DNA from: Burkholderiaceae bacterium
Lineage (GTDB): Bacteria > Pseudomonadota > Gammaproteobacteria > Burkholderiales > Burkholderiaceae_C
Reading direction: 5' to 3'
Assembly: GCA_030654805.1 (NCBI GenBank)
Contig: JAURWR010000013.1
Location: 1-64,000, forward strand
DNA length: 64,000 nucleotides
Part shown: positions 25,573-27,701 of the stretch, piece by piece
How positions within the stretch are numbered: position 1 is the stretch's first letter
How the letters are laid out: every line of letters starts with the position of its first letter
Translations under genes and position numbers: made by a program
The notes under the pieces: model-generated
What the model saw: the letters and a program-made list of their open reading frames with translations, nothing else
Databases searched by the model: none
Told to the model about the DNA's origin: nothing

Positions 25573-26130
25573 ATGACCGAAACGCTAGCCAGGAACGACC
25601 AGAACCTGATCTGGATCGATCTCGAAATGACCGGGTTGTTCCCGGAGACCGACCGCATCATCGAGATCGCGGTGATCGTCACCGATTCACAGCTGAATGT
25701 GCGCGTCGAGGGGCCGACCCTGGCGGTGCACCAGAGCGACGCCGCGCTCGACGCGATGGACGCGTGGAACAAGGGCACGCACGGCCGCAGCGGGCTGATA
25801 GATCGTGTCAAAGCGTCGACGATCGACGAAGCGCAGGCCGAGGCACAGATCATCGCCTTCCTGCAGCAGTACGTGGCCAAGGGCAAGTCGCCGATGTGTG
25901 GCAACAGCATCTGCCAGGACCGGCGATTTCTCGCCAAGACGATGCCGACGCTGGAAGCGTTCTTCCACTACCGGAATCTCGACGTCAGCACGTTGAAGGA
26001 ACTGGCCAAGCGCTGGAAGCCCGGCATCCTGGACAGCTTCAAGAAGGCGCAGGCACACACCGCGCTGGCTGACATCCGCGAGTCGATCGAGGAACTCGCC
26101 CACTACCGCGAGCACTTTCTTTCGGTGTGA
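25573..26130 (+). CDS. orn: Oligoribonuclease
   Basis: [33 protein letters not shown]…[16 protein letters not shown]…[14 protein letters not shown]. Confidence 0.96.
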
Positions 26131-26199
26131 GTCGAGGCCCTGCCGGCAGCGTCTCACACCCAAGGGCTTAGAACAGATCTGCCGAAGAGGTCAGCGCGT

Positions 26200-26302
26200 G
26201 AGCGCTGCGCCGGGCCGCTGTGTTGCGCTCATGTCCCCCGGGCCTGAAAAGACAGGCCCTCCTCCTTGACTTCGCTCCACACAGCGACCCGTCACAGCGC
26301 TC
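26200..26302 (-). repeat. Long hairpin A (minus-strand sense) of a duplicated intergenic structured element
   Basis: Arms 26200-26223 GAGCGCTGCGCCGGGCCGCTGTGT and 26279-26302 ACACAGCGACCCGTCACAGCGCTC (21/24 complementary); minus-sense loop GGAGCGAAGTCAAGGAGGAGGGCCTGTCTTTTCAGGCCCGGGGGACATGAGCGCA with inner hairpin GGGCCTG-TCTTTT-CAGGCCC. Confidence 0.85.
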
Positions 26303-26357
26303 CAACAACCACCGAAGCGGTCTGGGGTTTGATTGCCTTCGTCGCAACCACAGTGCT

Positions 26358-26465
26358 TGCTGCCGAGGGCGTTGGGTGACTGGCGAAGCGAAGTAAAGGG
26401 GGAGGGTCGGTCTTTTCGGCCCGGAGGACATGAGCGGAGCCGGTCACCCTGCGCCCTCGGCAGCA
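26358..26465 (+). repeat. Long hairpin B (plus-strand sense) of the same element
   Basis: Arms 26358-26383 TGCTGCCGAGGGCGTTGGGTGACTGG and 26440-26465 CCGGTCACCCTGCGCCCTCGGCAGCA (23/26 complementary); loop CGAAGCGAAGTAAAGGGGGAGGGTCGGTCTTTTCGGCCCGGAGGACATGAGCGGAG, nearly the same as loop A. Confidence 0.85.
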
Positions 26466-26504
26466 CCGCGCACCAGCCCGCATGGGGTCAGCGGTTGAGC
26501 ACGA

Positions 26505-27701
26505 TCAGTAGTTGATCCCCATCGCATCCCGCACTTCGCGCATCGTCTGCCGAGCCACCGTGCGGGCCCGCTCGGTGCCGACCTCGACGATCCACTGCAC
26601 CTGTTTCGGGTTGGTCAGGTAGGCCTCGGCCCGCTCGCGCCAGGGTTGCTGCTCGCGCAGGATCGCGTCGATCACCGGTTGCTTGCATTCCAGGCAGCCG
26701 ATGCCGGCGCTCTTGCAGCCGGTCACGACCCAGTCCTTCGTCTCGGCATCTGAATAGACCTGGTGGAACTGCCACACCGGGCAGCGCTCCGGGTCGCCCG
26801 CGTCGGTGCGACGCACGCGCTGTGGATCGGTCGGCATGCGCCGGATCTTGCGCTCGACCTCGGCCGGCTCCTCGCGCATCGCGATGGCGTTGCCATAGCT
26901 CTTGCTCATCTTCGCGCCGTCGAGGCCCGGCAGCTTGCTGACCTCGGTCAGCAGCACCGCCGGCTCGTGCAGGATGGTCTTGCCGGTGCCGCGCAGGAAG
27001 GCGTCGAGGCGTTCGCGGTCGGCTTCGCTCAGTGCGCCGCTGGCGGCGATCAGCGCGCGCGCTTGCGCAAGCGAGTCGTCGCTGCCAGTTTCCTGGAACG
27101 CCTTGCGCGCGGCGGCAAAGGCCTTGCCGTCGGCCTTGCTCATCTTCTTGACGACCGCCAGCGCCAGCGCTTCGGCATTCGCTTCACGGCCGTACAGGTG
27201 ATTGAAGCGGCGCGCGACCTCGCGGGTGATCTCGACATGCGGCGCCTGGTCTTCACCGACCGGCACGAACGCCGCCTTGTAGATCAGGATGTCGGCCGCC
27301 TGCAGCAGCGGGTAGCCGAGGAAGCCGTAGGTCGCGAGATCGCGGTCCTTCAGCTTCTCCATCTGGTCCTTGTAGGTCGGCATGCGTTCCAGCCACGCCA
27401 GCGGCGTGCCCATCGCGAGCAGCGTGAACAGCTCGGCGTGCTCGGGCAGGCGGCTCTGGATGAAGATCGTGCATTGCTCGGGGTCGAGCCCGGCGGCGAT
27501 CCAGTCGATCACCATGTCGTACACGTTCTTCTCGATGACCTCGCGGTCCTCGTAGTGCGTGGTCAGCGCATGCCAGTCGGCGACGAAATAGAAGCAGTCG
27601 AAATCGGCCTGCAGGCGCACCCAGTTCTTCAGGGCGCCGTGGTAGTGGCCGAGGTGCAGGGCCCCCGTAGGACGCATGCCGGACAAGACTCTCTGTTTCA
27701 T
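26505..27701 (-). CDS. trpS: Tryptophanyl-tRNA synthetase
   Basis: MKQRVLSGMRPTGALHLGHYHGALKNW…GAKMSKSYGNAI…. Confidence 0.95.
   Translation of the reverse strand: MKQRVLSGMRPTGALHLGHYHGALKNWVRLQADFDCFYFVADWHALTTHYEDREVIEKNVYDMVIDWIAAGLDPEQCTIFIQSRLPEHAELFTLLAMGTPLAWLERMPTYKDQMEKLKDRDLATYGFLGYPLLQAADILIYKAAFVPVGEDQAPHVEITREVARRFNHLYGREANAEALALAVVKKMSKADGKAFAAARKAFQETGSDDSLAQARALIAASGALSEADRERLDAFLRGTGKTILHEPAVLLTEVSKLPGLDGAKMSKSYGNAIAMREEPAEVERKIRRMPTDPQRVRRTDAGDPERCPVWQFHQVYSDAETKDWVVTGCKSAGIGCLECKQPVIDAILREQQPWRERAEAYLTNPKQVQWIVEVGTERARTVARQTMREVRDAMGINY

Follow-up and report, generated by a model that had tools for sequence, protein, structure and literature searches.

A dispersed unit of about 300 bp, made of two long hairpins that diverge on opposite DNA strands, stands between orn and trpS in the window, the stretch of 64,000 nucleotides of a Burkholderiaceae bacterium that was analysed. 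It belongs to an apparently undescribed family of hairpin dyads, as no earlier description was found in the open-access literature, and comparison of its copies indicates that the dyad is dispersed and very probably mobile. The explanation we favour, at somewhat better than even confidence, is that the unit represents a single copy of a REPIN-like mobile element, consisting of two long divergent hairpins and moved in trans by a protein that is not a RAYT or other Y1 transposase. The two conserved cores would then be the inverted ends of a non-autonomous element, each recognised as a folded single strand (the loop-sense strand, with one hairpin per DNA strand) by this putative trans-acting protein, and the element would settle in intergenic DNA, with its fold still maintained after insertion.

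The locus itself agrees closely with a sequence-only reading of the same DNA, which had placed two divergent hairpins between convergent orn and trpS, A on the minus and B on the plus strand (Table 1). The loop consensus that the hairpins were said to share matches the 5' halves of both without a mismatch (two hits at two or fewer mismatches, with 0.35 expected by shuffling), and each hairpin carries the separate inner stem quoted for it, GGGCCTG/CAGGCCC in A and GGGTCG/CGGCCC in B. The 24-bp outer stems each contain three imperfect positions, of which two are G-T pairs when read in the loop sense, as that reading had noted, and one is a mismatch. Both strands are able to fold, the loop-sense strand doing so better under RNA and under DNA parameters: RNA folding energies are -74.0 (A) and -78.5 kcal/mol (B) in the loop sense against -58.9 and -62.0 kcal/mol on the other strand, and folding with DNA parameters gives z = -6.0 (A) and -6.3 (B). 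A plain terminator had been thought unfitting, and is ruled out by a scan of the window that detected no intrinsic terminator of the type with a short GC-rich stem and a T run.

Table 1. Features of the hairpin dyad and its neighbours, in window coordinates.
Feature	Position	Strand	Basis or remark
Whole dispersed dyad unit	26180..26490	.	approximate limits, set by loss of similarity to other genomic copies
Hairpin A	26200..26302	- (loop sense)	covariance model R1 match 26201-26301, 93.4 bits, E 2.7e-18
Outer stem of A, 5' arm	26279..26302	-	
Outer stem of A, 3' arm	26200..26223	-	
Conserved core of A, 5' half, GAAGTCAAGGAGGAGG	26258..26273	-	pattern match and family alignment A2
Conserved core of A, 3' half, GGGGGACATGAGCG	26226..26239	-	pattern match and family alignment
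Inner stem-loop of A	26240..26257	-	terminal bases of the core halves close it; folding energies
Spacer separating hairpins A and B	26303..26357	.	55 bp
Hairpin B	26358..26465	+ (loop sense)	covariance model R1 match 26362-26461, 90.8 bits, E 1.2e-17
Outer stem of B, 5' arm	26358..26384	+	
Outer stem of B, 3' arm	26439..26465	+	
Conserved core of B, 5' half, GAAGTAAAGGGGGAGG	26390..26405	+	pattern match and family alignment
Conserved core of B, 3' half, GGAGGACATGAGCG	26423..26436	+	pattern match and family alignment
Inner stem-loop of B	26406..26422	+	folding energies
orn, left neighbour, 185-aa ORF	25573..26130	+	ORF list; name from the sequence-only reading, fits the ORF
trpS, right neighbour, 398-aa ORF, convergent with orn	26505..27701	-	ORF list; name from the sequence-only reading, fits the ORF

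Alignment of genomic copies reveals that A and B travel jointly, and the limits of the unit were drawn by comparison with copies L003, L004, L014, L001, L023 and L026, together with filled and empty orthologous sites. Close pairs of hairpins are divergent in 61 of 65 cases, with a gap between cores that is mostly 98-119 bp, and across the 143 divergent dyads the spacer has a median length of 53 bp and, at 65%, a GC content similar to that of the flanks. The stems had been described as unrelated between copies, which is correct for A compared with B, but not for other genomic copies, where A-type stems recur at the A place and B-type stems at the B place. Hence, as judged from these alignments, what repeats is the dyad of two hairpins, and copies do not each have stems of their own.

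Several copies vary in their architecture. Locus L029 (contig C131 of the host genome, G000) and the orn-trpS site of genome G009 (L187) carry collapsed dyads with a fusion of the two 3' halves, that of A and that of B, as expected from deletion between the inverted loops. Elsewhere, in genome G233, a dyad and a second copy of the spacer plus B enclose a Fic-domain gene (L245, 979-2199), and an A and a B hairpin, about 1.5 kb apart, flank the gene of a CopG-type antitoxin together with an ORF of 230 aa that has no Pfam match (L278, 1508-3082). In several species a palindromic module, CACAAACAGTCC NNN GGACTGTTTGTG with its flanks, sits inside family hairpins at a single site, between GGGGGA and CATGA; it is carried by loci L342-L347, L023, L181, L057 and L127, is also found elsewhere (L345, L348), and may be either an additional arm that marks a long subtype or an element nested in the hairpins. 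The B hairpins of the genus often have a longer alternative inner domain, GGATCGGTTTGACC...GGTGACCCGG, in place of the short inner stem (L035, L040, L048, L182-L184).

The first copies came from a pattern search of the host genome, and a covariance model was then built from 86 diverse hairpins. With this model, the host genome contains 26 hairpins, 20 of them in 10 divergent dyads. A genome-wide search of the kind that the sequence-only reading had proposed led to further copies there and to relatives in other genomes. The model found 112 hairpins in the 3.6 Mb of G233, 25 in G289 and 21 in G035, and identified at least 13 of 299 genomes of the order, and at least 5 of 370 of the class, as positive; since these large searches scored few candidates per genome, the numbers of positives are lower bounds. 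The strict pattern was present in 15 of 101 genomes (the host and its relatives) and, among named genomes, in at least 120 stretches. The latter are mostly Burkholderiales, including Rubrivivax, Hydrogenophaga, Rhizobacter, Variovorax, Paucibacter, Aquabacterium and others, with Sulfurisoma, Luteimonas and Pseudoxanthomonas also among the matches listed. The family is patchy, comprising Burkholderiales and a few Xanthomonadaceae. A blastn search with a hairpin from the window matched no plasmid, and its one phage match was spurious. A hairpin that scores 95 bits sits between meta-cleavage operon genes on a Burkholderia anthina plasmid; this plasmid, which was typed as conjugative, is a possible route of spread. 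Just upstream of this plasmid hairpin is a further interspersed repeat (L365, 1855-1964), which is common to other plasmids, where it lies beside catechol 2,3-dioxygenase genes.

The fold is strongly conserved across this family. The hairpins combine an outer stem of about 24 bp, free in sequence, with a purine-rich core that is conserved and an inner stem that varies, and in an alignment of 86 of them the 34 proposed pairs are formed in 93% of cells, a somewhat flattering figure, as the members were picked for differing outer stems and the structure was drawn from the same set. Nevertheless, the contrast with shuffled alignments is very large: 31 pairs changed on both sides, and the covariation score was 0.79, compared with 0.19 after shuffling and no more than 0.15 with the partner slid, which bears out the earlier description of covarying stems around a conserved loop. 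Covariation extends into the core, where C-G/T-A and A-T/G-C change jointly around a tandem G.A that has the context 5'-Py-GA-Pu-3' on both strands. Non-canonical core pairs also covary, according to the states tallied over 382 hairpins: position 10/-12 is A.G in 291 and G.A in 45, with G.G once, while position 9/-11 is G.G in 336 and A-T in 42, with other states in four, and its G.G/A-T change is found in four separate stem clusters. A two-tetrad G-quadruplex formed from GGRGG/GGRGG was considered and is disfavoured, because several lineages change G9 and G-11 jointly to A-T.

The strand on which this fold is relevant can be addressed through its wobble pairs. Outer stems of 207 copies contain 409 G-T against 55 A-C pairs in the loop sense, such that the strand-consistent wobbles first seen at the window's two hairpins are a property of the family. 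Taking a single copy per stem cluster gave 225 G-T against 16 A-C, with a script that weighted GT slightly above AC when placing stems, which the 207-copy count did not; a mutational strand bias could add to the excess. These wobbles had been read as favouring a loop-sense RNA, and this part of the reading is not supported: in tandem-gene contexts the GT share is 0.95 for operon-sense and 0.96 for antisense hairpins (gene directions followed a simple composition rule, by which single assignments may be wrong), and single-stranded DNA fits this equality better. One transcript cannot hold both loop senses, the spacer is GC-rich, and scanning of the window and spacer found no sigma-70-like promoter. 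We take these points to favour folding of each hairpin in its own DNA strand, in the manner of REPINs, over a host-transcribed RNA.

The rival reading, which we consider rather unlikely, is of a structured RNA, in which the hairpins, located in a 3' UTR or between genes of an operon, act within a transcript, for example in its processing or stability or in antitermination, and have spread by copying. Covariation and G-U wobbles are features of RNA families, but only one hairpin per dyad can be in the sense of a transcript, and yet both have the same wobble bias; the GC-rich spacer and the lack of a promoter-like site in the window count against it too. There is likewise no downstream gene in common, and a search of Rfam with the hairpins returned nothing at gathering score, a loose threshold adding only matches far below gathering scores, none of them credible.

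Genomic context provides further arguments for an RNA. Dyads occupy 14 divergent compared with 40 convergent contexts, consistent with their avoiding divergent promoter regions, and their frequency in 3' regions and inside operons suits a role in transcripts. In G233 and G289, dyads lie between codirectional genes, at a very regular place inside operons. In many of these copies the upstream stop is followed by a restart ATG, and the downstream gene is preceded by a GGAG ... TGANATG junction. Their operon-sense strand is low in stop codons, with open frames in 76 of 102 cases against 19 of 102 antisense in G233, and in 16 of 30 against 5 of 30 in G289, a bias that an RNA-level role would also accommodate. 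Such copies look like dyads adapted so as not to break translation. The regular placement counts against our preferred explanation of a REPIN-like element moved in trans, as it also suits an RNA-level role. A bolder version of that explanation, offered tentatively, is that the dyad represents a new class of mobile element, in which the hairpin pair, with its folded purine-rich core, would be the substrate on which a non-Y1 enzyme acts to move the dyad in the form of single-stranded DNA, and in which some lineages would have adapted to the stop/start junctions of operons without disrupting translation.

The history of the orn-trpS site bears on mobility and on later constraint. Six congeners in the tree, including the host genome, carry the dyad at this site and a seventh carries a relic, whereas sister species have an intergenic region of 32-46 bp, or an unrelated one of 101 bp. 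Mapped on the tree, where presence requires two changes in all, this shows a single insertion of the dyad between orn and trpS that was later retained. The dyads of G233 are alike inside and have unrelated flanks, which also points to movement. The earlier proposal of a structured RNA or a single-stranded DNA mobile unit is upheld in its structure, covariation and strand-consistent wobbles, the element being dispersed and very probably mobile, and is not supported in its loop-sense RNA. Over the six orthologues of hairpin A, the only one of the two hairpins for which pair-change totals were used, there are 10 GT and 2 AC, which, from few events, suggests that the fold was kept under constraint after insertion. 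Such maintenance at a vertically inherited site would be needless for a purely selfish element, and so host function or gene conversion may be involved.

Retention of the dyad at this site also suits the RNA reading, and it is among the points that favour a third possibility, that of a DNA site of the host chromosome, where folded or cruciform hairpins would bind a resident protein of the nucleoid, replication or recombination and be kept for the host, dispersal being secondary. A strand-specific fold and a purine-rich core, whose tandem G.A context is preserved on both strands by covariation, would serve such binding. We nonetheless regard it as improbable, given the very patchy presence among close relatives and the empty orthologous sites of sister species.

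Movement by an IS transposase of an internally deleted DDE transposon, that is, a MITE, would explain a short, non-autonomous, dispersed element with inverted cores. However, 17 G233 copies of one lineage gave no signal of target-site duplication (mean shared run 4.06, against 4.08 when shuffled), the unit ends lack evident inverted repeats in the alignment within the host genome, and a covarying fold would not be expected, so that this origin is very improbable. The sequence CATNTCAG, present at both ends of G233 copies, was considered as a target duplication; within a single copy the sequence is not the same at one end as at the other, and it was taken to be borne by the element.

No mobiliser was located by searches of the host genomes. 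The RAYT domain (Y1_Tnp, PF01797) had no match in G000, G233, G035, G012, G014 and G003, such that the RAYT or TnpA_REP partner suggested earlier is missing from both the host genome and the genome with 112 copies; 11 of 16 other element-positive genomes have Y1_Tnp matches. The absence from these six hosts speaks against RAYT as the mobiliser. No Y1 transposase was found between or beside the hairpins in the IS200/IS605 layout, and no neighbouring gene recurs near copies, where the ORFs seen either run through the element itself or are common genes. Reverse transcriptase (PF00078), expected of a group II intron or a retron-type retroelement, was rejected as a partner, being present in G012, G014 and G233 and absent from seven of the ten hosts (G000, G289, G035, G072, G120, G367 and G003).

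A further candidate is the integron integrase IntI, an enzyme whose substrates are likewise hairpins folded from single strands. It exceeds the curated cut-off in five of ten hosts tested (G000, G233, G289, G367 and G072), is split in G120 and fragmentary in G012 and G003, and exceeds the cut-off in none of 14 control genomes. However, G035, with its 21 hairpins, has no IntI above the cut-off, the family consensus has no attC R boxes, and the classical attC-like sites near IntI look different from family hairpins. Integrons are moreover common in some host groups, PMC12444791 giving 93% of Xanthomonas genomes. Because no family hairpin was found near an integron or IntI, the enzyme is only a lead, present in many hosts and not linked to the hairpins, and mobilisation by it seems a slim prospect. 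In many hosts the integrase genes are often at contig ends, for instance at G000:C23:44091-45032 and its homologues.

Among known systems, the family resembles REPINs in its working. REP doublets are inverted in 93% of cases (Bertels and Rainey 2011, PMC3116915), and here too the dispersed unit is an intergenic doublet of inverted hairpins with a short, near-constant spacer. However, REPs are 20-50 nt long with a GTAG-type tag outside the stem (PMC8266576), whereas these hairpins are about 100 nt long, with variable outer stems of about 24 bp and an internal conserved core. No GTAG/CGTC-type tag was found at the hairpin foot, either in the 86-hairpin alignment or in position counts, conservation lying inside, and the RAYT gene is missing from the host genome and from the genome of highest copy number. 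Because two defining features of the REP-RAYT system fail, the family is not filed as a member of it.

TnpA_REP binds and cleaves REP and not its complement (PMC8266576), and the strand-specific fold of its substrates and of IS200/IS605 ends is matched here by a pairing constraint on the loop-sense strand only. Target duplication was also not detected, in likeness to IS200/IS605, but several hosts have no Y1 HUH transposase, the sequence outside the hairpin lacks a conserved tetranucleotide, and here each DNA strand carries one of the two hairpins. Integron attC sites share imperfect hairpins, structure conserved above sequence, and a strand preference. Conservation in attC resides in the outer R boxes, whereas here it is internal, the outer stem is free, and copies are not clustered beside an integrase; in the family alignment, the outer ends contain no R boxes (RYYYAAC ... 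GTTRRRY), and outer stem positions are low in information. Rickettsia palindromic elements are palindromic repeats that lie inside genes and, on insertion into translated DNA, leave the reading frame open. Copies in G233 and G289 similarly seem to keep the frame open, but these are longer, paired, and placed where the stop of one operon gene meets the start of the next.

REP-type repeats are among the commonest repeats in bacteria, and the accepted account links them to RAYT transposases. A widespread and recently amplified family of hairpin dyads in hosts that lack RAYT would therefore imply another mobiliser, or another reason to keep such hairpins. Its very strong covariation gives a ready covariance model for the family, and the question is testable in Ca. 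Nitricoxidireducens bremensis, a host that has about 112 hairpins, or in cultured hosts (Sulfurisoma sediminicola, Hydrogenophaga, Variovorax).
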